Origin: Lachnospiraceae bacterium
GTDB lineage: Bacteria > Bacillota_A > Clostridia > Lachnospirales > Lachnospiraceae
Length of the DNA stretch: 64,000 nt
Reading direction: 5' to 3'
NCBI GenBank assembly: GCA_021770615.1
Contig: JAETQR010000019.1
Location: forward strand, 20,948 to 84,947
Part shown: piece by piece, positions 4,970 through 21,300 of the stretch
How the letters are laid out: every line of letters begins with the position of its first letter
Numbering within the stretch: the first letter of the stretch is position 1
Program-made: the position numbers and the translations under genes
The notes under the pieces: model-generated
The model's input: only the letters and a program-made list of their open reading frames with translations
Told to the model about the DNA's origin: nothing
The model's database searches: none

Positions 4970-7150
4970 ATGAACATTTTATTAATCGGTGATGACAACA
5001 AGCTGGTGGATGCCATGATAAATAAGTTCAATAAGAGCAACCACCGAATCTATTGGCTTACAGGACAGAAGGGGAAAAAAACTTCACGGAAACATGTATT
5101 TGAGACATATAATTTTTCCTATACAGACAGTAATGTCAAGGATATTGTAGAAAGTGTACGGCCTGATGTGGTGTTATTTACAGGGGCTTACGATACGGGC
5201 TTTGACTGGAAATATAATGGTCAGGCAGAAGCATTGCGTTATACGACGGCGGTAGTTAATATTCTGACTGCATACTCTATGCTTGGTGAAGGAAAGTTTA
5301 TTTATCTGTCATCCCAGGAGGTCTTTGACGGTTCCTATGCAAATGATATCGCAGAAACAGCTGCAATAACAGCCAAAGGTTTTAAGGCTCCGGCGGTATC
5401 GCAGGGAGAAGGTATGTGCAATAACTACAGGGAGATGCAGGGAGTCAATACGATCATACTGCGTCTGGATCATGTCTACGGTATTCCCGAAAAAGGACAG
5501 ACAGAAGGGGATCCCTGCTTTGAGATGTGCCTGGAGGCGTTAAGAACAGGGAAAATTCCCGCAAACAGCAAAAAGAGATTTTCCATGCTTTATCTGAATG
5601 ATGCAGTGGAGCTGATCTATAAGGTGATCGAGAAGGAAGCTCCCGAATATTCATGTTATCACATCTCATCAATGGAAGAGATTGATGGACTTGAACTTGC
5701 CGGGATCGTGAGGGATAAGATGGGCGGAGAGGTTGCGATCGTAGACCGCCCGGTAGGGGAAAATCAGCGGTTGGTGCTGGATGGGCGAAGGTATCAGAAG
5801 GAATTCGGACAGGATATTTTTACCCATTATGACAAGGGAGTAGATAAGGTTGTCCAGTATATGAAACAGTACAGTGATTTCTTCATCAAGACCGGTGATG
5901 CAGGAGGGAAGTGGAGCGGCAGTACCTGGCATGCTGCTAAGAAGGTCTTCAAAAGCCTGCTTCCGTTTATTGAGAGCTTCGTTTGTTTTATCCTGTTTTA
6001 CATACTGAATCAGCAGACTGTGGGAAGTCAGTATTTCAATAAACTGGATTTTTATTTGCTGTATGTTCTGTTGTTTGCAATCGTACATGGACAGCAGCAG
6101 GCAATTTTTTCTGCATTGTTGTCCGTGGTAGGTTACTGCCTGCAACAGTCGCACATTCATAGTGTATATGAGGTATTGCTGGATTATAATACATATGTGT
6201 GGATGGCGCAGTTGTTTATTGTAGGAATGGCGGTAGGCTACATGAGGGATTACCTCAGGCATATACGTGATGATAATGCGGAGGAGGTTCGCCGCCTTTA
6301 TGAAAAGATAGAAGGTATTGCAGAGATCAATGACAGTAATGTGCGGATGAAGCAGAATTTTGAGACGCAGCTTGTGAATCAGAAGGACAGCCTTGGAAAA
6401 GTATATGAGATTACATCACAGCTGGATCAGTACGGACCGGAGGAAGTGCTGTTCTATGCTGCCCAGATGCTGGGGCGGCTGATGGACAGCCGGGATGTAG
6501 CGGTATATCTTGTGGTAAATGATGACTATGCCCGCTTATACTCTGCGACCTCCGCAGATGCACGGAAACTTGGAGGTTCGATTCAATATACGGCAATGGA
6601 TGAGATGTATAATGAGTTAAAGGAAGGCAGAGTTTATGTCAATAAGACGATGACAGAGGAGCTGCCGCTGATGGCCAGTGCAGTGTTCTCTGAGGGAGAT
6701 ATGCAGTTGATCTTAATGCTCTGGGGAATCCCGTGGCAGCGTATGACTCTGGCAGAAACTAACCGTTTGACAATTATAGGGACACTTGTCCAGAACGCAA
6801 TGGTACGTGCAAGCCGTTATCTGGAAAGCCTCAGGGAGCAGCGTTACATGGAGGGGACAAATGTATTGAATGAGGAGGCGTTTACAAAGTTGGTATTTGC
6901 CTTTCTGGAGGCCAGGAAAAAAGGCCTGACGGAATGTGCATTGCTGGAGATTCAGGCAGGCAGTCAGGGATATGAGCATGCAGCGGATGTGCTGAGCAAT
7001 AATATAAGGTCGACAGATTATCTGGGCGTATTGGAAAACGGAAAGCTGTACGCGTTGCTCTCTAATACAAATGAAGAGAGTGCAGAAGGTGTTATAAAGC
7101 GGTTCCGGTCTGCCGGATATGACAGTCTGTTAAAGGAGGCAGAGGTATGA
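4970..7150 (+). CDS. pelD: PelD-like c-di-GMP receptor with N-terminal SDR-like domain
   Basis: The order of domains in this 726-aa protein is: an extended-SDR/epimerase-like fold (about 1-300; MNILLIGDD, FIYLSSQEVFDG, ILRLDHVYG), three or four membrane helices (about 330-430), a coiled coil (about 430-470), a GAF-like region, and a degenerate GGDEF domain. The GGDEF signature is gone, but the inhibitory-site motif RxxD survives as RSTD (residues 680-683), which in Pseudomonas PelD contributes to c-di-GMP binding. The SDR domain appears catalytically dead: the glycine-rich loop is GDDNKL, and the expected YxxxK site reads near APAVSQGE. It is first in the operon, with GGCGGAG upstream, and overlaps the next gene by 4 bp. 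By family knowledge it would activate polysaccharide polymerisation and export at the inner membrane. Confidence 0.8.
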   Translation: MNILLIGDDNKLVDAMINKFNKSNHRIYWLTGQKGKKTSRKHVFETYNFSYTDSNVKDIVESVRPDVVLFTGAYDTGFDWKYNGQAEALRYTTAVVNILTAYSMLGEGKFIYLSSQEVFDGSYANDIAETAAITAKGFKAPAVSQGEGMCNNYREMQGVNTIILRLDHVYGIPEKGQTEGDPCFEMCLEALRTGKIPANSKKRFSMLYLNDAVELIYKVIEKEAPEYSCYHISSMEEIDGLELAGIVRDKMGGEVAIVDRPVGENQRLVLDGRRYQKEFGQDIFTHYDKGVDKVVQYMKQYSDFFIKTGDAGGKWSGSTWHAAKKVFKSLLPFIESFVCFILFYILNQQTVGSQYFNKLDFYLLYVLLFAIVHGQQQAIFSALLSVVGYCLQQSHIHSVYEVLLDYNTYVWMAQLFIVGMAVGYMRDYLRHIRDDNAEEVRRLYEKIEGIAEINDSNVRMKQNFETQLVNQKDSLGKVYEITSQLDQYGPEEVLFYAAQMLGRLMDSRDVAVYLVVNDDYARLYSATSADARKLGGSIQYTAMDEMYNELKEGRVYVNKTMTEELPLMASAVFSEGDMQLILMLWGIPWQRMTLAETNRLTIIGTLVQNAMVRASRYLESLREQRYMEGTNVLNEEAFTKLVFAFLEARKKGLTECALLEIQAGSQGYEHAADVLSNNIRSTDYLGVLENGKLYALLSNTNEESAEGVIKRFRSAGYDSLLKEAEV

Positions 7151-8103
7151 CACTGACAAGAGAAGAGAGTGCTTTTTTGTGGGTTCTTGTTTTTAATCTG
7201 GTATTGGCAGTGATTTACCTGTTGTATGGGATGTTTTTTGCGGCAAAGTCCGATATAGATGAGGGTGAAAAAGAGGAAAATGGCTCCCGAAGCAGCAGAA
7301 GGACCTATCTGCTTCAGTTTATTATATTAGTACTATGCCCGGTCATCGGTTTTGTGTTTTTCTTTTTAGCAAAATTGCTTGAAAAAACCATCTTCCGGTT
7401 TAGTGTAAATCTGGATGATGTTATTTTCAGTAAGGATCGTGTTGATACGCAGGTAAAAGCGGATGAGGAGCAGGGCCGTAATATCATCCCCATTGAGGAG
7501 GCTCTTATAGTAAACGATAAAAAAAGCCTCCGTACAGCAATGCTGAGTATCATCAGAGGAGAGGTTCAGGGATCTCTTTCTTCTATTGCGCTGGCACTCG
7601 ATTCGGGAGATTCCGAGACAGCTCATTATGCGGCATCGGTGCTGAGCGACAAGCTGAACGAATTTCGTATAAATGTGCGGAAACTGTATTCAGAAATTCT
7701 GGAGGAGTCCGAGGAGCCGGGGCGTGAGGAAGCATTACTTGCTTATATGGACAGCTTTTTGAAGCAGAATATTTTTACGCAGCTGGAGCAAAACGGGTAT
7801 GTCCGGATGATGGCGGAGATTGCGGATACGATTTATGAGAGAGACCCATCCCGACTTACGGCAGAATTGTATGAGGGTGTCTGCCTGAGATTGATGGAGT
7901 CGGAGGAATTTGAAGCTTCAGAGAAGTGGTGCCTGCGGCTTTCACAGCAGCATCCGGAAGCTTTGTGCGCGTACACCTGCAGATTAAAGCTATATTTTAT
8001 ATTAAAAAACCGGAAAGCATTTTTGCAGACGCTCCGTGTTTTGAAAAAAGCAGATGTAGTTATTGACAGCGAAACTCTGGAGATAATCCGTATTTTCAGT
8101 TGA
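7147..8103 (+). CDS. pelE: PelE-like membrane/TPR protein
   Basis: This 318-aa protein starts with two membrane helices (about residues 10-32 and 52-75) followed by a helical cytoplasmic region whose repeats resemble TPRs, as in PelE. It overlaps the PelD-like gene by 4 bp (ATGA), which fits the PelD-PelE complex known from Pseudomonas. Sequence similarity to PelE is not obvious by eye, so the call rests on topology, size and gene order. Residues ~115-170 include a helical segment (KSLRTAMLSIIRGE) that may contact PelD. Confidence 0.65.
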   Translation: MTLTREESAFLWVLVFNLVLAVIYLLYGMFFAAKSDIDEGEKEENGSRSSRRTYLLQFIILVLCPVIGFVFFFLAKLLEKTIFRFSVNLDDVIFSKDRVDTQVKADEEQGRNIIPIEEALIVNDKKSLRTAMLSIIRGEVQGSLSSIALALDSGDSETAHYAASVLSDKLNEFRINVRKLYSEILEESEEPGREEALLAYMDSFLKQNIFTQLEQNGYVRMMAEIADTIYERDPSRLTAELYEGVCLRLMESEEFEASEKWCLRLSQQHPEALCAYTCRLKLYFILKNRKAFLQTLRVLKKADVVIDSETLEIIRIFS

Positions 8104-8116
8104 GGAGAGAAGGAAA

Positions 8117-9904
8117 ATGATATCACGCAGGAATTATTTAACAATTACGGCGGTAATGGTTGTTGTATTTTTCATGTTTCAGTTTACGAATGCCGTGCTG
8201 GAAGGCTGGAATGGTTATGAGAAAAATGTCTACGCCCAGGACAGAGAGAGCTTAGCCGGACAGGGAAATGCTTACAGGCAGGGACAGGAAAGCAGCTTAG
8301 GAAACTCCCGTGAGAAAGTTGTGTATATCGGAAATCCGGACGGGGCTCTTGGGAAAGTTGTACATAGCTGGGTGAACTATACGAAACGGGAGTCGGAAAT
8401 GTATAGCACCGTGGAGGAGTATAAAGGAGATGGTCCTCTGCCGGCGATGTTAGTGGTGGACGCGGAACATCTCGGCTGGGAGAAGGAATCTTGTGAGCGG
8501 CTAAAGGAATATGTGGAGCAGGGAGTCAATCTTGTTTTCTGTAATCTTCCGGATGTGTCTGTGATAAAGGACAACCAGGCGCTTAAAAATCTTCTGGGAA
8601 TTAAGGAGGTGCGGCAGGAGGAAACAACCGTTGAGGGAATTCATTTATATGAGGGTTTCCTTTTGGGGGGAGAGATTGTCTATCGGACTGAGGATGAGGA
8701 GGAATATGAGAAAAAGCAGGATATGGAACTGACTTTTCCATGGTATGCACTTTCTTCAAATACCAAGGCGTATATGCGCGGGGTTCCTGAGAAGGAGATG
8801 GATGTAAAGGATTATCCGCCGGTGATCTGGAAGAAAAATTTTGGAGATGCACATGTATTTGTCGTGAATGGCGGATATATGAATGATGCGGCAGGATTGG
8901 GTCTTTTATCTGCAATGTCTGCGGAATCGAAAGACTATGAATTATATCCGGTAGTGAATGCACAGAATATGGTGATCACGAATTGTCCGGGGATGGCGCC
9001 GGAGAATGAAAAGGAGATTGAAAAACGGTACGGACAGTCCATGCCGGAGGTGTTTCGGAATGTGATCTGGCCGTCGGTGGTATCTGTTTACCGCAGGAGC
9101 ACATTAGGACTTTCCTGTATGATCGCTCCGCAATATGATTATGAGGATGATAATTTCCCCAGTCAAACAGAGTTTGAATTTTATATGAAGCGTTTGAAGG
9201 AGCAGAGCGCAGAGGCGGGCTTATCCGGAGAAAGTGTATCGGATACACCGATCAGGCAGAAATTAAATGAGGATGAACGTTTTGTGAAAAAAGCGCTTCC
9301 GGATTATAAATTTTCTTCCTTTTATGCAGGGGATCTGACAGAGCTCGAACTGGATTCCGTCTTGCAGGAAAAAATGCTGGAAACGGTAAGGACTGTTGTC
9401 AAAGACTATGATGGCGGCAGCGAGGTCATAGGATATCAGTCAGAGTATATTACCGACCAGAGTATTCTCTCGGACGGTGTGGAATATACCTATCGTGAAG
9501 ATTTCAGGATGCGGAGCGTGCAGACAGCGTTAGGGTATGCCAATGTGGGAATGGATATTGGTACCGCTGTTTATCCGGACAGTTCCCAAGTCGAAATAGA
9601 CAAGATGATTTCGGATTTCAGTTGGAATGTAAGAACCTATTGGGAGAATTTTAACGGCTTTTCCGGAACAACATTATCTGAGTCCGATCAGAGGATCCGG
9701 AATTTTCTGGCACTCGATTATAAGGAAAGCCGGGATGGCAACGTAATCCGGTTGGATTTTACCGGTACAGATGCTCCGGTCTGGTTCATCCTGAGGACAG
9801 ATGATGAAAGGATCAGGCGGATCGAAGGCGGTGACTGGAAGTTGTTGGAGGAAGGAGTTTATCTGATTGAGGCAGATAGTACACATGTGACGATTGAGCT
9901 TTAA
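8117..9904 (+). CDS. DUF2194 protein, PelA-like
   Basis: This 595-aa protein has an N-terminal membrane anchor (about residues 8-28), then a large region expected outside the cell. It has the layout of DUF2194 proteins found in Gram-positive pel-like operons at the position of PelA: an early glutamine-amidotransferase-like segment (VVDAEHLGWEKE, YVEQGVNLVFCNLP), a middle region (APQYDYEDDNF) and a C-terminal beta-rich tail. In Pseudomonas PelA deacetylates and hydrolyses Pel. I cannot identify the deacetylase metal ligands, and there is no separate hydrolase domain, so activity is uncertain. It starts 13 bp after the PelE-like gene, with GGAGAGAAGG upstream. Confidence 0.7.
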   Translation: MISRRNYLTITAVMVVVFFMFQFTNAVLEGWNGYEKNVYAQDRESLAGQGNAYRQGQESSLGNSREKVVYIGNPDGALGKVVHSWVNYTKRESEMYSTVEEYKGDGPLPAMLVVDAEHLGWEKESCERLKEYVEQGVNLVFCNLPDVSVIKDNQALKNLLGIKEVRQEETTVEGIHLYEGFLLGGEIVYRTEDEEEYEKKQDMELTFPWYALSSNTKAYMRGVPEKEMDVKDYPPVIWKKNFGDAHVFVVNGGYMNDAAGLGLLSAMSAESKDYELYPVVNAQNMVITNCPGMAPENEKEIEKRYGQSMPEVFRNVIWPSVVSVYRRSTLGLSCMIAPQYDYEDDNFPSQTEFEFYMKRLKEQSAEAGLSGESVSDTPIRQKLNEDERFVKKALPDYKFSSFYAGDLTELELDSVLQEKMLETVRTVVKDYDGGSEVIGYQSEYITDQSILSDGVEYTYREDFRMRSVQTALGYANVGMDIGTAVYPDSSQVEIDKMISDFSWNVRTYWENFNGFSGTTLSESDQRIRNFLALDYKESRDGNVIRLDFTGTDAPVWFILRTDDERIRRIEGGDWKLLEEGVYLIEADSTHVTIEL

Positions 9905-9927: not shown

Positions 9928-11391
9928 ATGAGGATTTGTATAGTAGCGGAAGGGTGCTACCCTTATGTAGTGGGTGGTGTGTCTGAGTGGATACATAGCC
10001 TGATACACTCTTACCCGGAGCATGAATTTGTGATTCTTGCAATTGTGGCAGACCGTTCATTGCGGGGGAAATATGTATATGAACTGCCGGAAAACGTGTC
10101 AGAAGTACATGAGCTGTACCTGAATGATTCTGACTGGGACAGCAGAAAGAGCAGAAAAAGAATCCGGATGAAAAAGGAACAGTACCAGGCGCTGGTAAAC
10201 CTGATGCTTGGCCAGCAGGTAAAGTGGGAGCCGCTTATTGATTATTTCCGGACAACGAAAGCCTCCCTGAATGACGTACTGATGGGTGAAGATTTTTTGA
10301 ATGCAGTTACGGAATATTATCGTCTGCAGTATAGCCAGATTGTATTTGTTGATTTCCTTTGGATGATACGTTCCATCTATCTGCCATTGTTTACTGTCTT
10401 AAAAATGGAGATCCCAAAAGCGGACGTGTATCATTGTACTGCTACCGGTTACGCGGGAGTGCTGGGAAGTATGGCGAAGTATATCCATGGCGGGCGCCTT
10501 CTGATATCAGAGCACGGTGTATATACACGTGAGCGTGAGGAAGAACTGATTAAGGCAAAATGGGTACAGGGGATCTACAAAAATATATGGATCGACCAGT
10601 TTAAGAAAATGTCGGCATTTGCCTATGACAGGGCAGATCTGGTGGTAGGTCTTTATAACCATGCAAGGGAACTTCAGATAGAATTGGGATGTCCGGCCGG
10701 AAAGCACAGAGTTATACCAAACGGAATCCGGGTGGAGAATTTTCAGGATCTGCCTGGAAAACAGAAAGAAGATGAGGGCAGGATCAATATTGGTTCTGTA
10801 CTGCGTGTGGCTCCGATCAAGGATATTATGACACTGATTCAGGCATTCGGCTTTGCGAAAGAGAGAGATCCAAGGCTAAAGCTCTGGATCATGGGAACCT
10901 GGGAGGAAGAAGAATACGCAAGGAACTGCTTTGAGCTGGTACGTATTATGGGGATCCAGGATGTAGAATTTACCGGGCGGGTCGATGTCAGAGAATATTA
11001 CGGACGGATGGATATGACAATTCTGACCAGCATCAGTGAAGGACAGCCGCTTACCATTTTGGAAAGCTTTGCGGCACATAAGCCTGTGATCGCTACAGAT
11101 GTAGGGAACTGCCGCGGTCTGATCCTTGGAGAGAATGACAGCTATGGCGCGGCGGGCATTGTTACACGCATTATGCATGTAGGAGAGATTGCCAATGCAA
11201 TGCTTATGCTGGCTCAGGATGAAGCGTTGTGCCGGCAGATGGGTGAGAACGGTTACCGGAGAGTTGTGGAAGGTTACCAGTTTGCCCATATGCAGGGGGC
11301 TTACCGTGAGATCTATCAGAGATTTGCAGATGAGCTGCAGATACCGTCAGATGGAGAGGAAAGCGAGGAAAATGAATTATGGCAGGCGTAG
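9928..11391 (+). CDS. pelF: PelF-family GT4 glycosyltransferase
   Basis: This is a 487-aa cytoplasmic retaining GT4 enzyme. The N-terminal EGCYPYVVGGVSEWIHSLI is the hallmark of the PelF/DUF3492 group. The C-terminal Rossmann half shows VIPNGI, VLRVAPIKDI and the nucleotide-sugar site SEGQPLTILESFAAHKPV with its two glutamates nine residues apart. PelF builds the Pel backbone with PelG; the donor here cannot be read from sequence. AAGGAAGG precedes the ATG by 6 bp, and the 3' end overlaps pelG by 13 bp. Confidence 0.9.
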   Translation: MRICIVAEGCYPYVVGGVSEWIHSLIHSYPEHEFVILAIVADRSLRGKYVYELPENVSEVHELYLNDSDWDSRKSRKRIRMKKEQYQALVNLMLGQQVKWEPLIDYFRTTKASLNDVLMGEDFLNAVTEYYRLQYSQIVFVDFLWMIRSIYLPLFTVLKMEIPKADVYHCTATGYAGVLGSMAKYIHGGRLLISEHGVYTREREEELIKAKWVQGIYKNIWIDQFKKMSAFAYDRADLVVGLYNHARELQIELGCPAGKHRVIPNGIRVENFQDLPGKQKEDEGRINIGSVLRVAPIKDIMTLIQAFGFAKERDPRLKLWIMGTWEEEEYARNCFELVRIMGIQDVEFTGRVDVREYYGRMDMTILTSISEGQPLTILESFAAHKPVIATDVGNCRGLILGENDSYGAAGIVTRIMHVGEIANAMLMLAQDEALCRQMGENGYRRVVEGYQFAHMQGAYREIYQRFADELQIPSDGEESEENELWQA

Positions 11392-12848
11392 GTGTTAAAT
11401 TAAACCGTTTTTTTGAAAAGAAGTCAATTGCGGCAGACGTTCTCGGAATTACCTATAGTGTTGTTATTACGATCGCTCCGATACTTATGGTTGTTGTAGG
11501 TATTCTGTTAATGGGCAGCATGTTGGAAATCGGGCAGGCGTCTTATCTGGAGAGGGAATTGTTTTCCTGTACAATGATGTATATTCTGATTTTTGCACTT
11601 CTGGTAGTCGCTCCGTTTAGCGCGGTATTCTCCAGGTATATGCAGGATGTGATGTATGAAGAAAAATTTCAGGATATTCTTCCCTGCTATTATCTGGGGG
11701 CAGCTATGACAGTAGCGTTGGGATGTCTTCTGGGAATTCCGTTTTGTATCCGGGAGCATTTTGCAGGCGGAGTAGATGTATTTTATGTGTTCATCAGCTT
11801 TTGCGCTTACATTTCTATGATACTGGTGTTCTATTCCGTGACCTATCTGTCCTGCTGTAAGGACTATGAAAGGATTTCTCTTTTCTTTTTCATCGGAATG
11901 GCAGCAGCATTCGGAGTCGCGTGGATCCTGCGTTTCTGGTGCCGTTGGGAAATTACGGAGAGCATGCTGTTTGCATTGATGGTCGGATTTCTGCTGATCG
12001 CAGTGCTGCAGTATACGGCTATTAAAAGCTATTTTAGCGGAAACAGCCACAACTACAGACCAATACTGAGATATTTTAAAAAATGCGGATATTTGGTCGT
12101 CACGAACTTTTTATATGTGTTGGGCCTTTATATTCACAATTTTGTGCTCTGGACAGGTGATGGGCGGAGAGTGGTTGCGGAGAGCTTTGTATTTAACCAG
12201 TCGTATGACATGGCAACCTGCCTTGCAGCTGTGTTTACCAATGTGTCTGCGACCGTTATCTTTGTTACACATATGGAAATGCATTTCCATGAAAAATACA
12301 AGCTTTATTCGGAGGCCGTGATCGGCGGGAAGAAAGTGGATATCGAGAATGCCAAAAGCCAGATGTTCTGGCAGCTCGGGAATGAGTTAATGAATCTGGC
12401 ACGTGTGCAGTTTATTATATCCGTAGTGGCTTATCTGCTGTGTATCGTAATCGCTCCGCAGTATGGGTTTGCGGGAAATGTCATGCGTATATACCCATGT
12501 CTGGCTGCAGGATACTTTATTGTGTTTATTATGTATGCCGCACTTCTGTTCTTATATTATTTCAATGATGTGTCAGGCACGATTTTGACGGTTTTGAGCT
12601 TTTTCTTTGTCACCTTTGTTGGAAGCGTAATTTCTATGCGTCTTCCGGAGATCTGGCAGGGAATGGGGCTTGTGGCGGGAGCTCTTGCAGGATGGACGGT
12701 GGCATATATGAGATTGCGCTGGGTGGAAAGGAACCTGGATATGCATATTTTCTGCCGGGGAACCATTATAAAACAGGAAAGCGGACAGATGCCTTCCAGT
12801 TTGGTCTATCATAAAGCAGATGAGAATGAGGAGAAGGAAAACAGATAA
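11379..12848 (+). CDS. pelG: PelG-family exopolysaccharide exporter
   Basis: This 489-aa polytopic protein has about twelve hydrophobic helices and the charged N-terminus GVGVKLNRFFEKKSI followed by a long helix, typical of PelG (a MATE/Wzx-like flippase relative). Together with PelF it would synthesise and move the glycan across the membrane. It overlaps pelF by 13 bp and uses GAGGAAAATGAATT as its translation-initiation region. The PelD-E-A-F-G order seen here matches the Gram-positive pel-like arrangement and gives high confidence. Confidence 0.9.
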   Translation: MAGVGVKLNRFFEKKSIAADVLGITYSVVITIAPILMVVVGILLMGSMLEIGQASYLERELFSCTMMYILIFALLVVAPFSAVFSRYMQDVMYEEKFQDILPCYYLGAAMTVALGCLLGIPFCIREHFAGGVDVFYVFISFCAYISMILVFYSVTYLSCCKDYERISLFFFIGMAAAFGVAWILRFWCRWEITESMLFALMVGFLLIAVLQYTAIKSYFSGNSHNYRPILRYFKKCGYLVVTNFLYVLGLYIHNFVLWTGDGRRVVAESFVFNQSYDMATCLAAVFTNVSATVIFVTHMEMHFHEKYKLYSEAVIGGKKVDIENAKSQMFWQLGNELMNLARVQFIISVVAYLLCIVIAPQYGFAGNVMRIYPCLAAGYFIVFIMYAALLFLYYFNDVSGTILTVLSFFFVTFVGSVISMRLPEIWQGMGLVAGALAGWTVAYMRLRWVERNLDMHIFCRGTIIKQESGQMPSSLVYHKADENEEKENR

Positions 12849-12850
12849 AC

Positions 12851-13216
12851 ATGGAATACGCAATGCAGGCAGCAGGAATCATCATACTATTGTCCGTCAC
12901 CTGGCTTCGGGCGGTAAGGAAAATGACAACAGACCTTACCGCTTTTTGGGGGATCGTGGGCATAGTGCTGGCTGCATTGAGTATGGTAATTTCGCGGTTC
13001 GACCGGATTGCAGCGCTGGAGGCCGAACAAAAGAGAGTTTTGATTTTTCTCGGAATTATGATATTGACCGGAGGGGTTATTGCCAGCCTTTATTTTTCAA
13101 GTAAGATCATGAGAGATCAGGAGCTGGCTATTTGGCGCTCCCTGTCATTGCAGGAAAAGGAACAAATATCAGGCAGGTTGGATGAAATGAATGAAAAAAA
13201 TTCTCTTTGTAATTAA
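12851..13216 (+). CDS. DUF2304-like small membrane protein
   Basis: This 121-aa protein has three hydrophobic helices (about residues 5-20, 31-48, 60-82), then a charged helical tail containing SLQEKEQISGRLDEMNEKN. The size and plan match DUF2304 proteins, which sit beside glycosyltransferases in polysaccharide loci. It starts 2 bp after pelG and its end overlaps the next glycosyltransferase by 26 bp in another frame. Its biochemical role is unknown. Confidence 0.75.
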   Translation: MEYAMQAAGIIILLSVTWLRAVRKMTTDLTAFWGIVGIVLAALSMVISRFDRIAALEAEQKRVLIFLGIMILTGGVIASLYFSSKIMRDQELAIWRSLSLQEKEQISGRLDEMNEKNSLCN

Positions 13217-14405
13217 TACGATGGGACGGGCAGGCGCAGAGACGGCCTTTCTGGAATTATTGAAGAATATAGACAGATCTGAATATGAGATTTTTCTTTA
13301 TGTACTTATGGGTCAGGGTGAGATGAGCAGTAAGCTGCCGGAATATGTGCAGGTATTGAATCAGTCACTCAGCAGCTTGTCTGTATTGACAGACAGGGGA
13401 AGAATGCGGATGGCGCTGACTGTTTTCCGCGCATTCTGGGCACATGGAGCATGGGGCGGAAAATTATACGGTATGATTCAGAATCTTGCAGGCATGATGA
13501 AAAGGAAAAGGATTCAGGCCAGTAAATTATTCTGGCGTGTACTTTCCGATGGGGCGGATCGTTTTGAGACAGAGTTTGATCTTGCGGTTGCATGGCTGGA
13601 GGGCGGTTCTGCCTATTATGTGGCAGATCATGTGCGGGCAGGAAGAAAGGCGGCGTTTCTTCATATTGACTATGAAAATGCGGGATACACGAGAAAAATG
13701 GATCGGGCGTGCTGGCGGCAGTATGACCGGATTTTTGCAGTTTCGGGGGAGGTAAAAGAGCATTTTCAGTCATTTTATCCGGAGTATGCCCAAAAGGTCT
13801 GTGTTTTTAATAATTATATTAACCAGGATGCCATCCGTGCCCGTGCGAAGGAGCCGGGAGGATTTTCAGATAATTTTGATGGGATCAGACTCTTAACAGT
13901 AGGAAGGCTGACCTATCAGAAAGCTTATGATATTGCCGTCGAGGCAATGAATATTTTAAGAGCGGCGGGCTGGAACGTGAGATGGTACGTCCTTGGGGAG
14001 GGGGAACAAAGGAGATTCCTGGAAAAAAAGATTGCTGCGTTTGGACTGCAGGAAGATTTCCTGCTTTTGGGCGCTGTTGAAAATCCATATCCTTATTATG
14101 AACAGTCGGATATTTATATACACGCAACCAGGTTTGAGGGAAAAAGCATTGCACTTCAGGAAGCTCAGACGTTAGGGTGTGCGATCGTGGCTTCTGATTG
14201 CGACGGCAACAGGGAGCTGATCGAGGACGGGAAGGACGGAATACTTTGTGCACTTATCCCCGGGCAGATTGCAGCTCATGTTGCCATGCTTTTGGAGGAC
14301 GAAAGGAAACGAAAAGAACTTGGAAGGGCGGCAGGGGCCAGAAAAATACCGCAAGGACAGGAGTGTTTCCTAGAGTTTTTGTTTGAAGAAAATAATTATG
14401 AGTAA
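13191..14405 (+). CDS. GT4-type glycosyltransferase
   Basis: This 404-aa enzyme has the GT-B fold signature: N-terminal ILFVINTMGRAGAETAFLELL, a C-terminal TVGRLTYQKAYDIAVEAM, and the donor-site stretch FEGKSIALQEAQTLGCAIV. GT4 enzymes transfer sugars with retention; donor and acceptor are unknown. It starts inside the DUF2304 gene and its stop overlaps the next GT2 start by 8 bp, so these genes are co-translated. Confidence 0.9.
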   Translation: MKKILFVINTMGRAGAETAFLELLKNIDRSEYEIFLYVLMGQGEMSSKLPEYVQVLNQSLSSLSVLTDRGRMRMALTVFRAFWAHGAWGGKLYGMIQNLAGMMKRKRIQASKLFWRVLSDGADRFETEFDLAVAWLEGGSAYYVADHVRAGRKAAFLHIDYENAGYTRKMDRACWRQYDRIFAVSGEVKEHFQSFYPEYAQKVCVFNNYINQDAIRARAKEPGGFSDNFDGIRLLTVGRLTYQKAYDIAVEAMNILRAAGWNVRWYVLGEGEQRRFLEKKIAAFGLQEDFLLLGAVENPYPYYEQSDIYIHATRFEGKSIALQEAQTLGCAIVASDCDGNRELIEDGKDGILCALIPGQIAAHVAMLLEDERKRKELGRAAGARKIPQGQECFLEFLFEENNYE

Positions 14406-15186
14406 ACAGAAAGAGTTGCTGGTGATCATACCGGCGTATAATGAACAGGAAAATATATCGGGAGTATTGCGGCAGCTTAAGCAGCAGCGGATTGAAGATA
14501 TTGCGGACGTTCTTGTGATAGACGATGCCTCTGCAGACGCTACAGGGTATCTTGTCCAAAGAGAACGATGTACCCTTATCAGAAATGTACGAAGAATGGG
14601 ATATGGAAATTCCCTGAGGCTGGGATATCAGTATGCGGTGCGCAAAGGTTACCAATATGTCATTCAAATGGACGCGGACGGTCAGCATGATGCCTGCAAC
14701 ATCCCGGTAATTTATCGTAGGCTGCTGGAAAAGGATGTGGAGGGGCGCCGTCCGGATGTTGTGCTGGCCTCCAGATTCATGAAAGGAAGCACGGATTTCC
14801 CTGTCAGCGTATTAAAAAAAATCGCTTATGCATGGTTCCGATTTCTGGTTCGTGCAATATCGGGGCAAAAGATCGCAGACCCCACTACGGGCCTTCAGGG
14901 ACTCAGTCGAAAGGCATTTTGCTATTATTCTGATCCCGGGCATTTTGACGACAGATATCCGGATGCAAATATCATCATACAGATGCTGCTGCTTCAGTTT
15001 TATGTGACAGAGATTCCGGCAGTCATGTATGTAAGGTCCGGAGGGCAAAGCATGCATAAGGGTTTTTCGGCATTTTGGTATATGTGTCGTATGTTTTTTG
15101 ATATTCCCGCAGTTATTTTTCGGATAAAAGTATTGAAAATAGATGCTAAGGCAGGTTTGCAGGATGTGGATCAGACAGAAATATAA
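14398..15186 (+). CDS. GT2 glycosyltransferase, DPM/polyprenyl-phosphate type
   Basis: I start this 262-aa protein at ATG 14398 (MSKQKELLVIIPAYNEQENI), where the fold begins. It shows the GT-A pattern VIDDASADAT and the metal-binding MDADGQHD, as in dolichol-phosphate mannosyltransferase-like enzymes that charge a lipid carrier, and DPTTGLQGLSR. There are no strong C-terminal membrane helices, so it is the soluble form. It could supply a lipid-linked sugar to the 726-aa membrane protein two genes downstream, but that is inference. Confidence 0.88.
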   Translation: MSKQKELLVIIPAYNEQENISGVLRQLKQQRIEDIADVLVIDDASADATGYLVQRERCTLIRNVRRMGYGNSLRLGYQYAVRKGYQYVIQMDADGQHDACNIPVIYRRLLEKDVEGRRPDVVLASRFMKGSTDFPVSVLKKIAYAWFRFLVRAISGQKIADPTTGLQGLSRKAFCYYSDPGHFDDRYPDANIIIQMLLLQFYVTEIPAVMYVRSGGQSMHKGFSAFWYMCRMFFDIPAVIFRIKVLKIDAKAGLQDVDQTEI

Positions 15187-16498
15187 GGTGCGTTTCCGAA
15201 AAGCAGAATTTCGGGAAAGCAGTAAAGAATTAGATCATCCGGGCTGTGGGTGGTATCATGTTTATCCCTTTGTACTACAGACACCGACAGAGCTTTCGCT
15301 TGAAGAGACAGCAATCTGTATTTCCGATATCAGCAAAAGGGAACAGCTGGTATTGGTGCGGATTGATATTGGTGCTTTTCGATCCTGTGAAATACCTCAG
15401 GAGGCACTGGATGATGTCTTTCGTATCTTTGATTTATTCCGTACCTGCCGGAAGCAGATGATCGTGCGGTTTACTTACGATTCTGAGGGAAAGGGAATGG
15501 AGAGGGAACCACAGAATATTTTTCTGGTGAAAAAACACATGGAGCAATTAGGCGGGATGATCCGCAGGTTTGCATCAGATATTCTGGTTCTTCAGGGAAT
15601 CTTTGTGGGCAGCTGGGGGGAGATGCACCATTCAAAATTTCTTACAGTCCCCGATATGTCAGAACTGATATGCAGCCTGTATCATGCTGTAGGGGACAGC
15701 TGCTATCTTGCTGTCCGCACACCTGGGCAATGGCGGGATATTATAGCTACCGTAGGGAATGAACATGCACTGAAAGAACAAATGGGCCTGTTTAACGATG
15801 GGATGTTTGGATCCTCTACGGATCTTGGGACATATAAAGAGGGGACTAGACAAGAGGAACTTGAATGGCAGGAGCGTTTTATTACCAAGGCGCCGAATGG
15901 GGGAGAAGCGCTGGCCGGAGAGACGCCGATGGGTTATTTCAGAGCGGCCAAAGAGATGCAAAAAATGCATCTGAGCTATTTAAACAGCAGCTATCAGCCG
16001 GAGCAATTGGAGTACTGGAAAAAAGAATGTGTCAGGCATCCGGGATGCTGGAATGGACTTAGCGGTTACGAATATATCGGCCGTCATCTGGGCAGCCGCT
16101 TTATGGTCAGTGATGCCAGGGTGAAAGGGAAGAAGCTGGAGGTTGTTATTGAAAATCACGGTTTTTCCGGATTTTATGAGGAAGCAGAGTGCTCTCTGGA
16201 GCTGGAGGGGGAAAACGGAAGTGCATACTGTAAGTATCTTGATACAAATGTATCTGAGTGGGGAAATGAAAAAAGGATAGTATTGCAGATATCATTGTCT
16301 GAGGAAGAAATGGAAGCAGAGGAATGTAAAGTTTATTTTCAGATGAAGAGGAAAAGAGACGGAAGGCCTGTGCGGTTTGCAAATCAGGATGCCGGAGACA
16401 GAGTACTGCTTGGGGGTTTTAACCTTACCCAAAGGGCATCCCGTAATGCAGGCTCCCTAACGGGAGCGGGCGGACGTCGTCCGTCAAAGTATAGATAG
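15143..16498 (+). CDS. DUF4874/DUF4832 protein with repeat-derived C-terminus
   Basis: This is one of two paralogues in the locus (the other at 18703-20136). It shares HPGCGWY/NRGFY, the VRFTYD strand, LQGIFVGSWGEMH, YLAVRTPGQWR, LFNDGMFG, NGGE and YLNSSYQPEQLEYW. The conserved acidic and aromatic residues on apparent barrel strands suggest a TIM-barrel glycosidase-like fold, but the activity is unknown. Unlike its paralogue it has no N-terminal membrane anchor. ATG 15164 is an alternative start. The last 22 residues before the final Arg (from TQRASRN) are encoded by a dispersed repeat element, while the paralogue ends near the position where the repeat begins. Confidence 0.82.
   Translation: MLRQVCRMWIRQKYKVRFRKAEFRESSKELDHPGCGWYHVYPFVLQTPTELSLEETAICISDISKREQLVLVRIDIGAFRSCEIPQEALDDVFRIFDLFRTCRKQMIVRFTYDSEGKGMEREPQNIFLVKKHMEQLGGMIRRFASDILVLQGIFVGSWGEMHHSKFLTVPDMSELICSLYHAVGDSCYLAVRTPGQWRDIIATVGNEHALKEQMGLFNDGMFGSSTDLGTYKEGTRQEELEWQERFITKAPNGGEALAGETPMGYFRAAKEMQKMHLSYLNSSYQPEQLEYWKKECVRHPGCWNGLSGYEYIGRHLGSRFMVSDARVKGKKLEVVIENHGFSGFYEEAECSLELEGENGSAYCKYLDTNVSEWGNEKRIVLQISLSEEEMEAEECKVYFQMKRKRDGRPVRFANQDAGDRVLLGGFNLTQRASRNAGSLTGAGGRRPSKYR
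16427..16493. repeat. Dispersed palindromic element, copy B, inside a coding end
   Basis: This 67-bp unit is the reverse complement of copy A (4569-4635) with about 7 mismatches. It starts in frame inside the DUF4832 gene and ends 2 bp before its stop codon. The blocks GGCTCCC-TAAC-GGGAGC and GGACgtcGTCC can form adjacent hairpins, so it may also act as a 3' structure of the message. Confidence 0.8.
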
Positions 16499-16520
16499 AA
16501 TACAGAAAGGAGAGCTCTGC

Positions 16521-18701
16521 ATGGAATCATGGTATTGGATGGCGGAATACGGGAAGGTGCTCTGCGGGTATTTGTTTTTCATGTTCCTTTGGCCGTCTGT
16601 TGTGTTTGGCGGGCATTTAAAAGGGAAAAGTAAGACATACCGCTTTAGTTTTTGCGTTACAGTCCCGGTTGTAATTGCCGGTACAGTAGTTTTGACACTG
16701 GGATTATTCCATATCCTCCGTCCGCAGGTGATTGTTATTTTGTTTTACGGGGCCTTTTTTCTTGCGCTTCTGAAAGGAATCATACAGCGCTCTTTTACAT
16801 TTCCGGTAAAGAAGACACGGTGGGAATTTTGCAAACAAATAGGAGAATACGGTGTTCTTGCCGTTCTTGTAATATTTGGAATGATTTATTTTTCTTATGG
16901 AGCATTTCAGATACATTCTTATGGATTCGGAGATCTGTACACGCATCACGAGTGGATCTATGGTCTGAAGGAGGGGAAGATTTTTGCAGGCGGGGTATAT
17001 CCGGAGGCAATGCATTGTTATATTTATTGTCTGAATGCACTGTTTGGGATTCGGGTGTACAGTTGTCTGATGTTTCTGCAGGGAATTCATGTGGCTACAT
17101 TTTTGATTGCAGGGTATTTGCTGATGAGGGAGATTTTTCATTGGCGTTATACACCGCTTTTAGTATTAACATTATTTTTGACACTGGATGTAGTCAGTGC
17201 AGATTTAATTTATAGCATATACCGCCTGCAGATTACTCTTCCGTTGGAGTTTGGCCTGTATACGCAGTTCTTATGTGCGTTATATCTTGTGCGCTATTTA
17301 AAGGATGACCACAGACTTGAAAAAAAAGGGCGGCTCTCCCGGTATTGCTGGGATGAAAATCTTTTTATATTTTTGGTGTCGTTGACGGCATCGGTTTCGA
17401 TTCATTTTTATACTGTTATTATGGCATTTATTTTGTGTGGTTCTTTTGGAGTGTTTTTGATCAAGAGATTGTTTTCGAAAGAGCATTTTGTCCCATTGGC
17501 AGTTTCCGTTTTGTGTGCATGCATCGTTGCCGGGGCGCCTATGGCAGGGGCTATGGCGTCAGGGACGCCTTTTAACGCGTCTATCAACTGGGCAGTGGGA
17601 GCTATGGACGGTGAAGAAACCAGAGCGCTGGAGGAAAAGAATGCACCGGAAGAACCTGTGCCTGCGGATAAGCCGATTGTGATTACTGTACTGAAAATAG
17701 TGAAGGGGATATATACAGAAGGATATGCTGAGCTTTATGGGGCGCGCGGAGCATGTATGATTCTGTTGGTAACAGGAGTCGGCATTGTATTGTGCTTCTT
17801 TTCAGGGAAAAAATCATCAGATGGGCTGAGAGAAATATGCGCTGGATATCCACCGTTGATTTTCTTTACAGTCTTGTTTGTATTTCTTTATGCGGCGCCG
17901 CGTTTAGGACTTCCGGAAATTATTTCTGATTCCCGTTTTTGTTCGACAGGACATATGATGCTCATGGCACTTATGATGATACCTGTGGATGTTTCTTTTT
18001 CTTTATCTAGCCGATTTTTTAAGGCTGTGCCTATGAAAGCAGTATCATTTTGTTCTGTTGTCGGTATTTATGGACTGACTATATTGACGGGACATTTTCA
18101 CGGATATTTGTTTTTTGAATTGTCGCGGTATAACGCAGCAGTTGAAATGACAAACCTGGTCATAGAACAATTTCCAGAAAAAAGCTATGTGATTGTTGCG
18201 CCGACCGATGAACTATATCCGGTCATTGAATATGGATGGCATGAGGAATTACTGACATTTGTATCTAAAATAGCAGATGAAGGTTATACATTTGCACCGG
18301 AGCACGTATTTTTCTTTGTTGAGAAAAAGCCGTTGCAGTATGCTCAGGCCTACTTTTTTGATGGGCCTTCGTGGCTGGCACAGTCAAAGTATAAAGATAT
18401 TTACTGGGATAAATATTCGGGCAAATATCCTGATACAGGGGCAACGCAGGCACCGGAGATTAATACTTCTGAAGTATCAGAGGAAGAGGCTCAGAAGGAT
18501 CTGATTATATATGAGAATCCATGGTTTTCTTATACAAGGCTTCCGTCCCGTACGATTCTGGAGTCAAAGGTCTATGACTGGTGCCGGAAATTTGCAGAGA
18601 TTTATCCGGAAAATATGAAGATATATTATGAGGATGATGCTTTTGTCTGCTATTATTTAAGACAGAATGAGGGCGCACAATATAATCTGAAGGTAGAATA
18701 A
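16521..18701 (+). CDS. Large polytopic membrane protein, unknown
   Basis: This 726-aa protein has about 12-14 hydrophobic helices spread over residues ~10-540, then a C-terminal domain of ~180 residues with no further helices, probably outside the cell. The overall plan resembles lipid-sugar-dependent GT-C glycosyltransferases or polymerases, and an early loop has acidic residues (GFGDLYTHHEW) that could be catalytic; I cannot assign a family. AGAAAGGAGAG precedes the ATG. It lies between two DUF4874/4832 paralogues, 22 bp after the first and 1 bp before the second, so the three probably form one functional unit. Confidence 0.7.
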   Translation: MESWYWMAEYGKVLCGYLFFMFLWPSVVFGGHLKGKSKTYRFSFCVTVPVVIAGTVVLTLGLFHILRPQVIVILFYGAFFLALLKGIIQRSFTFPVKKTRWEFCKQIGEYGVLAVLVIFGMIYFSYGAFQIHSYGFGDLYTHHEWIYGLKEGKIFAGGVYPEAMHCYIYCLNALFGIRVYSCLMFLQGIHVATFLIAGYLLMREIFHWRYTPLLVLTLFLTLDVVSADLIYSIYRLQITLPLEFGLYTQFLCALYLVRYLKDDHRLEKKGRLSRYCWDENLFIFLVSLTASVSIHFYTVIMAFILCGSFGVFLIKRLFSKEHFVPLAVSVLCACIVAGAPMAGAMASGTPFNASINWAVGAMDGEETRALEEKNAPEEPVPADKPIVITVLKIVKGIYTEGYAELYGARGACMILLVTGVGIVLCFFSGKKSSDGLREICAGYPPLIFFTVLFVFLYAAPRLGLPEIISDSRFCSTGHMMLMALMMIPVDVSFSLSSRFFKAVPMKAVSFCSVVGIYGLTILTGHFHGYLFFELSRYNAAVEMTNLVIEQFPEKSYVIVAPTDELYPVIEYGWHEELLTFVSKIADEGYTFAPEHVFFFVEKKPLQYAQAYFFDGPSWLAQSKYKDIYWDKYSGKYPDTGATQAPEINTSEVSEEEAQKDLIIYENPWFSYTRLPSRTILESKVYDWCRKFAEIYPENMKIYYEDDAFVCYYLRQNEGAQYNLKVE

Positions 18702-18702
18702 A

Positions 18703-20136
18703 ATGGCAAAAAGACGTAAGGCGAAATTCATATTTTTTTCCTGCAGTTTTATCATAATAATGTTAATGCTAGTATTTATGTTTTCTATGCTCAGGGACGG
18801 TGAACAGGAGATAGAAATAAAGAACGAAACTTTTACAGCATCCTCTAGGGAATTGAATAATCCTAACAGGGGATTTTATAGGCTGTATAGTTTTCTGATT
18901 ACAGATGAAAAGCAAGACTACACAGAGATGGTCTCGACGCTTTTTCAGGAGGATCGGGATACAAGGCTGGCCTTGATTCAAGTCTGCCTTAAGTCGTACC
19001 GCCGCGGAAGTATTACGGAAGAGGGACTTGACAATATTGAAGCATTGTTTGATGTTTTGGGGGCGCTGAATAAAAAGCTGATCGTTCGGTTTACGTATGA
19101 CAACGAGGGAGAAAATGAGAGGTATGAACCGGAAAGTATGGACATTATTCTGGCACATATGGAGCAACTATCTTATATCCTGCGTAAATACAGCAAAAAT
19201 ATTTTTAGTCTGCAGGGGCTTTTTATTGGTAACTGGGGGGAAATGAACGGCACACAGTACAACTCGGATGAGGAGTTGAGGAGACTTGCGGAAAAGCTGG
19301 CAAGGGTCACAGACCAGACGACCTACCTGGCTGTGCGTTCGCCGGCTCAGTGGAGAGGTATCATGCAGTCACAGGAGACCGATTCGGGAAATATTTTTGC
19401 GGGAAGATTCGGGCTTTTTAATGATGGAATGCTTGGGAATGAAAGTGACTATGGAACATACAGGACAGGTGAAAATGCAGATGACGGCGTACCGTTTCCC
19501 CGCCTGGAAAGAGAGGAGGAACTGATGTTTCAAAATGAACTGTGCAAGAGAGTTCCTAATGGCGGAGAGGTTATTCATGATAATATATATAATGATCTGG
19601 AAAATGCAATCAAGGATTTTGAGGTCATGCATGTAACATATCTGAACAGTGGGTATGATCAGGCAGTTCTGGAAAAATGGGCTGAGACAGCGATAACAGA
19701 GGCTGGATGTTTTGAAGGGATGGACGGGCTCACTTATATAGAGAGGCACCTGGGATACCGTCTGATGATTGTGAATGCCGGCCTTCAATACAATAGCGGG
19801 GAGAATAAACTGAGTGCAGAGGTGACGTTAAAGAATGTCGGATTTGCACCTATCTATGAGGAAACAGAGATTCAGATAATTTTATATAATGAAAAAACAG
19901 AACAGACAATTGTCTATCCGGTTGTTCAGGATTTATACACATTAAGCGGGGGGAGTGAAAAAGAAGATGAGCTGACACTTTCGGTGGAGATCCCTTTTCA
20001 GGAATTGTTGGAAAAGGGATATACAGTATATTTTTCAATCGTAGATTCAGATACAGGGGAGCTTATTTTATTGGCCAATGAGGAGGACGCAGAATGGTAC
20101 GGTTATCGGATAGCTTCCTTTTCTGTCAGTAAATAA
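18703..20136 (+). CDS. Membrane-anchored DUF4874/DUF4832 protein
   Basis: This 477-aa protein has a basic N-terminus and one hydrophobic helix (about residues 7-29), so the body is exported and tethered. It shows the same landmarks as the 15143-16498 protein: NPNRGFYRLYSF, KKLIVRFTYDNEGE, LQGLFIGNWGEMNG, YLAVRSPAQWRG, RFGLFNDGMLG, RVPNGGEV, HVTYLNSGYDQAVLEKW. The C-terminal ~110 residues look like a beta-sandwich (DUF4832). A barrel with conserved Asp/Glu suggests a glycan-active enzyme or a binding protein, unproven. It starts 1 bp after the membrane protein stop. Confidence 0.82.
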   Translation: MAKRRKAKFIFFSCSFIIIMLMLVFMFSMLRDGEQEIEIKNETFTASSRELNNPNRGFYRLYSFLITDEKQDYTEMVSTLFQEDRDTRLALIQVCLKSYRRGSITEEGLDNIEALFDVLGALNKKLIVRFTYDNEGENERYEPESMDIILAHMEQLSYILRKYSKNIFSLQGLFIGNWGEMNGTQYNSDEELRRLAEKLARVTDQTTYLAVRSPAQWRGIMQSQETDSGNIFAGRFGLFNDGMLGNESDYGTYRTGENADDGVPFPRLEREEELMFQNELCKRVPNGGEVIHDNIYNDLENAIKDFEVMHVTYLNSGYDQAVLEKWAETAITEAGCFEGMDGLTYIERHLGYRLMIVNAGLQYNSGENKLSAEVTLKNVGFAPIYEETEIQIILYNEKTEQTIVYPVVQDLYTLSGGSEKEDELTLSVEIPFQELLEKGYTVYFSIVDSDTGELILLANEEDAEWYGYRIASFSVSK

Positions 20137-20226
20137 ATCGCGTTACAATACAGATACATGAAGTACGATTGATCGAGAGGCAGGAGTATAAGACTTAGAA
20201 CAGATAAAATGTAGAGGGAGAAGAAA

Positions 20227-21300
20227 ATGAATGTGGATAAGAAAATATGCTGCGGCTGTCAGGCTTGTCAGGATATTTGTCCGGCAAAGGCGGTGCACAT
20301 GCATTTAGACTCAGAAGGCTTTTGGTATCCGGTCAAAGAGGAAGAAAAATGTATTCATTGTATGGCTTGTGAAAGGGTTTGTCCGATAAAAAATTCAGAG
20401 GAAAAAAGAGGGGAACGGATTTATGTCGGCGTGCAGGCGAAAGAAGATACAATTCGATTTGCCGGTTCGTCCGGAGGAATGTTTTTTCTTCTTGCGAATT
20501 TTGTCTTGAAAAGACAGGGAGTGGTGTATGGGGCAGGATTTGATCAGGAGATGTCGGTAGTCCATAAAGGGGTTTATGATGAGAGAAGTCTGAGACATAT
20601 TCTGAAAACAAAATATGTCCAGAGCGACATGAGTGGCATATATCGCGAGGTATTGGAGCATTTGAGACAGGGGGAATGGGTATTGTATTGCGGAACACCC
20701 TGCCAGGTACGGGCGATGAAACTTTTTCTGGGAGAAGACTTTCCCAAGATGATCCTGGTAGATCTAATTTGCTACGGGGCAGCTTCCCCGGGTATCTGGA
20801 AAGCTTATGTGAATTATCTGGAACGAAGAGATAAAGGGAGGCTTGAGAGCTTTTCTTTTCGGGATAAGAGAAACAAAGATTCAGGAAGGAGTTGTTCTTA
20901 TGTAATAGGCGGAAAAGAGAAAACGGAGGCATTGGCTGAGAATCTTTATTGCCAGTTGTATTTTGGGAACTACCTGATGCGTTATAGTTGCCATACTTGC
21001 AGGTTTTGTACGGTAGAGAGAGACAGTGATTTTACACTTGGAGATTTTTGGGGGATTGAGAAATGTAATCCTTCATGGGATGATGGAATGGGAACATCTC
21101 TTGTTATGCTGCATACTAAAAAGGCAGAAGAGGTTTGGGGGTCTGTCAAGGAATCAGTCAGATGGTTTGCATGCAGCAAGGAGGAGATACTTCAGCCGCG
21201 GCTTTTAGAGCCGACCAGACAGGCGAAGCATCGCAAACTTTTTATGAAAGCGTATCAGGTGTTGCCTTTTTGGCTATTAGCGAAAATAGGAGACCGATGA
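20227..21300 (+). CDS. F420-hydrogenase-beta-like iron-sulfur protein
   Basis: This 357-aa protein begins with two 4Fe-4S clusters (CCGCQACQDICP and CIHCMACERVCP), followed by the coenzyme-F420 hydrogenase/dehydrogenase beta-subunit fold (FAGSSGGMFFLLANF, YCGTPCQVRAMK, DLICYGAASPGIWKAY, CRFCTVERDSDFTLGDFWG). Clostridia lack F420; such proteins repeatedly sit next to polysaccharide pyruvyltransferases in glycan loci, as here two genes downstream. It may be a redox partner or sugar oxidoreductase; the reaction is not known. AGGGAGAAGAAA precedes the ATG. Confidence 0.85.
   Translation: MNVDKKICCGCQACQDICPAKAVHMHLDSEGFWYPVKEEEKCIHCMACERVCPIKNSEEKRGERIYVGVQAKEDTIRFAGSSGGMFFLLANFVLKRQGVVYGAGFDQEMSVVHKGVYDERSLRHILKTKYVQSDMSGIYREVLEHLRQGEWVLYCGTPCQVRAMKLFLGEDFPKMILVDLICYGAASPGIWKAYVNYLERRDKGRLESFSFRDKRNKDSGRSCSYVIGGKEKTEALAENLYCQLYFGNYLMRYSCHTCRFCTVERDSDFTLGDFWGIEKCNPSWDDGMGTSLVMLHTKKAEEVWGSVKESVRWFACSKEEILQPRLLEPTRQAKHRKLFMKAYQVLPFWLLAKIGDR

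Follow-up and report, generated by a model that had tools for sequence, protein, structure and literature searches.

A PelD protein of Lachnospiraceae carries a degenerate SDR domain that may descend from an epimerase and may now be kept for docking

Introduction

The fusion of an N-terminal SDR domain to PelD has already been published and is in itself of low novelty. In the sections of their article that deal with PelD, Whitfield et al. (2020; PMC7112168) described such domains in streptococci, clostridia and actinobacteria, where residues of the cofactor site and of catalysis are altered, called the degenerate SDR likely catalytically inactive, and predicted the SDR of Brevibacillus PelD to be functional. 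The clostridial and actinobacterial proteins of those sections carry a degenerate N-terminal SDR within a pelDEADAFG cluster, as does the PelD studied here, which shares the architecture of the Brevibacillus protein but has an apparently dead SDR where the latter has intact catalytic and cofactor motifs. The class IV PelD of S. intermedius resembles ours in its degenerate SDR, TM and GAF parts and is presented without a GGDEF domain in the part of PMC12345266 devoted to it, whereas ours keeps a GGDEF domain with an I-site. PelD of P. aeruginosa (4dn0, 4etz) has the same GAF and degenerate GGDEF domain with I-site but, in that part of PMC12345266, no SDR domain.

Our literature search on the SDR or epimerase domain of PelD found no study of its function, and a search on PelD in Lachnospiraceae found no pel study, the matches looking unrelated by title or abstract. 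Here we analyse a stretch of 64,000 nucleotides from a Lachnospiraceae bacterium (contig JAETQR010000019.1), called the window below, and add a tally of intact, degenerate and SDR-less forms among 150 PelDs, the finding of split SDR genes, and the conservation of one residue, Lys22.

Materials and Methods

The homologue set of the window PelD consisted of the best 80 of 129 relatives, labelled mostly as Lachnospiraceae or related Clostridia. PelG was surveyed in 398 genomes of the phylum, of which 13 scored above the cut-off, and regions were taken from 10 of the 13 (all except G001, G274 and G290). The PelD C-terminal part was searched in 148 genomes of the G114 family, where all 28 genomes with a match at E 1e-50 or better were read, and in 151 genomes of the G183 order, where 37 of the 48 with a match at E 1e-29 or better were read. 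The G183 order holds Selenomonas, by the names of database matches, and its proteins are hence called Selenomonas-type. The 70 fetched regions (one of which, L090, held no PelD ORF) and the loci of the best 80 of 129 relatives yielded 150 PelD ORFs; the N-terminal cuts of L100 and L103 were placed by length. Trees took 18 and 12 of the 82 Lachnospiraceae-type rows. Pocket columns were mapped onto GalE contacts.

Results

The pelD gene and its cluster

The pelD gene of the window (4970..7150; plus strand, as are all features below unless stated) encodes 726 amino acids, arranged as SDR, TM, GAF and degenerate GGDEF according to the ORF, Pfam and structure models. A degenerate extended-SDR domain of epimerase type covers residues 1-305 (4970..5884), followed by a putative membrane-helix region (residues 315-431; 5912..6262) in which the structure model, with pLDDT partly below 60, predicts helices at 315-350, 361-373, 375-393 and 406-431, by a GAF domain (residues ~493-620; 6446..6829) and by a degenerate GGDEF domain (residues ~635-722; 6872..7135) identified by Foldseek and profile matches. 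The fusion of a dead SDR domain to PelD, proposed in the preliminary description, was thus confirmed, and the PelD identity given there agrees with the pel cluster, with the GAF and degenerate GGDEF domains and with the I-site. The nearest named locus among the best 80 of 129 relatives was L001 (uncultured Dorea sp., 89% identity). A plasmid search with the window PelD at E 1e-5 returned no matches. The Pfam family PelD_GGDEF (PF16963) was absent from its matches at E 0.01, and PelD of B. cereus is likewise reported as unmatched by this family in the corresponding section of PMC7112168.

The cluster runs in the order pelD-E-(A)-F-G. The pelE-like gene (7147..8103), named by position, overlaps pelD by 4 bases and has a homologue in all 68 rows of the Lachnospiraceae set with 8 kb of room. 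It is followed by a DUF2194 protein at the pelA-DA place (8117..9904; PF09960, E 4e-25), which we would name PelADA from synteny, by the glycosyltransferase-family gene pelF (9928..11391; DUF3492, PF11997, E 2.1e-78), named by synteny and domains, and by pelG (11379..12848; PF16933, E 2.7e-134). In comparison with the clusters shown in PMC7112168, as far as that source describes them, the window has extra glycosyltransferases, several of them downstream of pelG, and two DUF4874/DUF4832 genes. The first of these (15143..16498; PF16173, PF16116) is a candidate Pel glycoside hydrolase, SIR_1591 of S. intermedius (DUF4832) being described as an active hydrolase in the section of PMC12345266 that treats it; the second (18703..20136; PF16116, PF16173) shares 31% identity with the first across the region that matched. 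A Pfam scan of 19 ORFs, which cover part of the window, gave no CotH match.

Several further observations were made at these loci. Between the two DUF4874/DUF4832 genes lies a conserved pel-cluster protein of 726 amino acids without known domain (16521-18701, plus strand), with no Pfam match at E 0.01 and no PDB match at 0.1, whose homologues occur in 60 of the 68 pel loci of the Lachnospiraceae set with 8 kb after pelD. Just upstream of pelD, on the minus strand, 4570-4686 matches the C-terminal 39 residues of the window DUF4874/DUF4832 protein (54% identity, E 1.6e-5) and is perhaps a gene remnant or repeat. Locus L003 holds back-to-back SDR-pelD genes (6333-8510, minus strand; 10001-12178, plus strand), 76% and 86% identical to the window pelD; together with the multiple pelG matches of G001 (2), G006 (2) and G007 (3), this indicates that duplicate pel clusters occur among these relatives. 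In L074 (Hominisplanchenecus faecis; 10001-22163) pelD, pelE and the DUF2194 gene are accompanied by a best pelF match of only 144 amino acids, and a PelG match sought in the genome was not found, so this cluster is perhaps broken or reduced.

The C-terminal part keeps a putative c-di-GMP site

Since the structure lists of the whole model gave SDR matches only, the C-terminal part was modelled separately. Its top four Foldseek matches were P. aeruginosa PelD (4etz/4dn0; E 6.9e-09 to 3.3e-08), including the c-di-GMP complex 4dn0; mainly the GAF part was aligned in these rows, and at whole-chain TM of 0.33-0.37 and rmsd of 15-16 the domain arrangement is unmatched. The profile of the C-terminal alignment matched 3ign, a diguanylate cyclase (E 1.3e-05); the two RxxD motifs coincide in this match, and GGEEF is replaced. 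This bears out the earlier claim that RSTD (residues 680-683; 7007..7018) was kept and GGDEF lost, Arg680 and Asp683 aligning to the I-site of 3ign and not away from it.

Together with R711 (7100..7102), the candidate equivalent of B. cereus R395 and P. aeruginosa R402, R680 and D683 were invariant in the 81 proteins of the Lachnospiraceae set (best 80 of 129 relatives), in 120/120 among the database matches listed (29 of which lack the first loop and were counted there as gaps), and throughout the 41-row C-terminal alignment, which includes distant PelDs. The spacing between R680 and R711 is 31 in the window versus 32 in B. cereus, whose c-di-GMP-binding residues, with those of P. aeruginosa PelD, are named in PMC7112168. 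We infer from these residues that the window PelD binds c-di-GMP through R680, D683 and R711. A source of c-di-GMP is likely, since 3-9 GGDEF-domain matches were found in each of nine related genomes (9/9).

The SDR domain has lost its catalytic residues

By Pfam and the structure model, residues 1-303 match the extended SDRs 6wjb and 4zrn, and the domain thus resembles UDP-sugar 4-epimerases of the PelX/GalE type in its Rossmann-type fold while differing from them in the loss of Tyr, Lys, Rossmann Gly13 and Asp31. The nucleotide loop (residues 7-13; 4988..5008) reads GDDNKLV in place of GxxGxxG, with N10 and V13 at glycine positions; across the 81 proteins Gly is kept at position 7 in 79, at position 10 in 24 and at position 13 in none. 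At the former YxxxK site (residues 139-143, KAPAV; 5384..5398), aligned to GalE Y149/K153, neither the catalytic Tyr nor the Lys occurs in any of the 81, and the NAD-ribose Asp at position 31 is equally absent, with Thr in 77. The catalytic Ser/Thr position, S115, is kept in 79/81, and E147, C150 and D211 are invariant in 82/82 proteins of the Lachnospiraceae set including the window. Judged from these sequences and from the model, the SDR is catalytically dead with a fold predicted to be intact. The preliminary description had argued for this state, with about 300 residues of SDR before the membrane helices, a degenerate loop and YxxxK site and an intact fold, and profile and alignment checks found no active epimerase with conserved catalytic residues in its place.

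Intact, degenerate, split and SDR-less PelDs

Among the 150 PelDs, 25 had intact SDR motifs (GxxGxxG, Asp31, Tyr and Lys all kept), 117 were degenerate and 8 had no SDR. All 25 intact proteins, which are in the same state as the Brevibacillus PelD described in PMC7112168, fall in the G114 family, out of its 28 PelDs. The degenerate ones comprise the 81 of the Lachnospiraceae set, 35 of the G183 order and L089; Tyr is retained in L086 and L150 and Lys in L149, and most SDRs of the G183 order are without even the Rossmann loop.

In the G114 family, an intact SDR ORF of fused type lies before every SDR-less PelD (L106, L109 and L112). The SDR and PelD genes share 4 bases in L106; in L109 the ORF overlap is about 450 bases, so that a single frameshifted gene and a split one are equally likely there. 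In the tree, fused and split SDRs formed one clade apart from four stand-alone rows (100/99), and L106 was nested among fused rows, which indicates that covalent fusion is not needed, with adjacency being kept. No SDR gene was detected near the SDR-less pelD in the L081, L083, L084, L143 and L148 loci, the upstream flank being below 2 kb in the last two. Given these proteins and the streptococcal PelD without SDR that PMC7112168 mentions from a strain with pel-dependent biofilm, the SDR appears dispensable in some hosts.

In two loci of the G183 order (L086, 3435-6629; L150, 6629-9795) an intact stand-alone epimerase gene lies directly before pelD. Their fused SDRs keep GxxGxxG and Tyr and have lost the catalytic Lys, possibly an intermediate state. 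As a general rule, compensation of a degenerate fused SDR by an adjacent intact SDR gene was rejected, as it held for 3 of the 117 degenerate rows (L015, L086 and L150). The SDR tree favoured two independent catalytic losses, but a single origin was not rejected (AU p 0.229) and the branches are long; there was at least one loss of catalysis, perhaps two.

Lys22 is shared by intact and degenerate SDRs

At least 90% conservation was found at 116 columns of the 25 intact fused SDRs, and six of these columns (G7, K22, L95, L99, E147 and D211) persist in both degenerate sets. Four of the six are also common in stand-alone SDRs; K22 occurred in 4/30 and L95 in 0/30 of a background that combined GalE with the three stand-alone SDRs next to pelD and 26 of the SDRs found elsewhere in the genomes searched. 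Lys22 (5033..5035) was present in 24/25 intact, 82/82 Lachnospiraceae-type (window included) and 32/35 Selenomonas-type fused SDRs. In 120 Selenomonas-type proteins listed of 150 database matches, a set that overlaps the earlier Selenomonas rows, the column held Lys in 117, a gap in two and His in one, alongside F20 (118), E23 (117) and W25 (118), each also with two gaps, although the mean identity of the N-domain was 37% and the Tyr/Lys pair occurred in 0/120 (Lys in 2/120). Intact and Selenomonas-type domains have the motif KE-x-[HYW], the window lineage K-x-x-H; the split SDRs carry the motif, and the intact stand-alone SDRs that neighbour pelD in L015, L086 and L150 lack it.

In the predicted model K22 ends helix 1 (residues 11-22), on a side of the sheet that, by SDR topology, we take to face away from the cofactor cleft, so that Lys22 would sit at the alpha1-beta2 turn and be remote from the active site. 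Its retention across intact and dead SDRs favours a docking or scaffold role older than the catalytic loss. The signal came from a column scan and partly reflects shared ancestry, and an alternative is that Lys22 caps the helix as a trait specific to this family. We suggest only tentatively that PelD SDRs, active or dead, share a docking face which holds the epimerase beside the Pel synthase and has outlived catalysis.

Selection on the SDR domain

Mean pairwise identities of the SDR, TM and C-terminal parts were 0.60, 0.43 and 0.42 in the intact family, 0.50, 0.59 and 0.60 in the Lachnospiraceae set, and 0.27, 0.42 and 0.51 in the Selenomonas order. The median ratio of SDR dN to C-terminal dN was 0.85, 1.35 and 2.17, respectively, and the median whole-gene dN/dS was 0.06, 0.18 and 0.21, all from pairs limited to dS of 0.15-1.3 and hence near saturation (64 pairs in the Lachnospiraceae set, 7 and 34 in the others). 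Between the window and L001, whole-gene dN/dS was 0.054, with a dN of 0.064 in the SDR and 0.045 in the C-terminal part. The faster change of the SDR in the degenerate lines indicates relaxation after catalytic loss; within the limits set by dS near saturation, these rates show it as strong in the Selenomonas order and mild in the window lineage, whose SDR stays constrained.

Such relaxation would be expected of a decaying remnant that persists only by folding, its reaction taken over by epimerases elsewhere. The low identity and the mostly lost Rossmann loop of the Selenomonas order, the higher SDR dN in both degenerate groups, the existence of SDR-less PelDs, the intact SDR beside pelD in three loci and the SDRs found elsewhere in all 12 genomes searched (12/12) fit this explanation. 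The invariant E147, C150 and D211 of the window lineage and the low dN/dS between the window and L001 argue against it, as do the full-length ORFs of 720-807 amino acids at each of the best 80 of 129 loci, although the search favours intact genes; on balance we regard a mere remnant as unlikely.

The former sugar pocket

The GalE-contact columns N179, R231, R292, Y149 and K153 were mostly or wholly replaced in the 81 proteins. Conservation of the sugar-contact columns was no higher than that of the others (permutation P 0.53), and for the NAD-contact columns P was 0.07. At several columns a new polar residue is itself conserved, namely T31, D167 (76/81), H168 (61/81) and K or R139 (74/81), and the pocket may accordingly serve an altered ligand. 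Hydrophobic filling of the pocket was rejected: the Kyte-Doolittle shift was -0.60, a value reached by random sets with P 0.91, which gives no clear sign of a filled pocket.

The preliminary description had suggested that the dead SDR may sense a nucleotide sugar alongside c-di-GMP. Such a sensor would bind UDP-GlcNAc, UDP-GalNAc or some other nucleotide and link the supply of precursor with control by c-di-GMP. The retained S115, the new polar residues and the lack of a hydrophobic shift would suit a sensor. The average conservation of the sugar columns speaks against it, as does the replacement of GalE R231, R292 and N179, which we take to be the diphosphate and sugar anchors, and the Selenomonas-type SDRs carry P167 and E168 at the same columns. 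The proposal is not supported on these points, and we consider it improbable. That the SDR is still an enzyme, of a different mechanism with Lys139 replacing Tyr, is hardly credible: a basic residue is common at that column and Cys150 is invariant (81/81), but the complete absence of the third Rossmann Gly, the NAD-ribose Asp and the active-site Lys leaves no cofactor site of known type.

Discussion

The reading that we prefer, at roughly even chances, is that of a PelD whose degenerate SDR descends from an epimerase and is now kept for docking through the face that holds Lys22. The ancestral domain would have been an active UDP-hexose/HexNAc 4-epimerase, fused to PelD or encoded just before it, a position in which it could supply UDP-GalNAc next to PelF. 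The catalytic residues seen in the intact family were lost in the Lachnospiraceae-type and Selenomonas-type lines. In the window line the SDR would dock PelD to a partner, be it PelE, PelF, PelG or the cytoplasmic part of PelD itself, and the face used would include Lys22 at the alpha1-beta2 turn. At the other end of the protein, c-di-GMP bound at R680-x-x-D683 and R711 would activate PelF, within the PelDEFG membrane complex, to polymerise Pel, a step modelled on proteins of B. cereus and of P. aeruginosa (PMC7112168 and PMC13254593). The docking reading, a hypothesis, suits the sequences and models better than the sensor idea. The SDR-less PelDs without a detected SDR gene at their locus and the relaxed constraint in the degenerate lines weigh against it.

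The face around Lys22 and the pocket residues together offer a concrete and cheap discriminator between scaffold and sensor in a widespread biofilm synthase, here in gut bacteria. If active and dead SDRs do share a docking face, as tentatively suggested above, PelD would represent a natural series that leads from a channelling enzyme to a pseudoenzyme scaffold.
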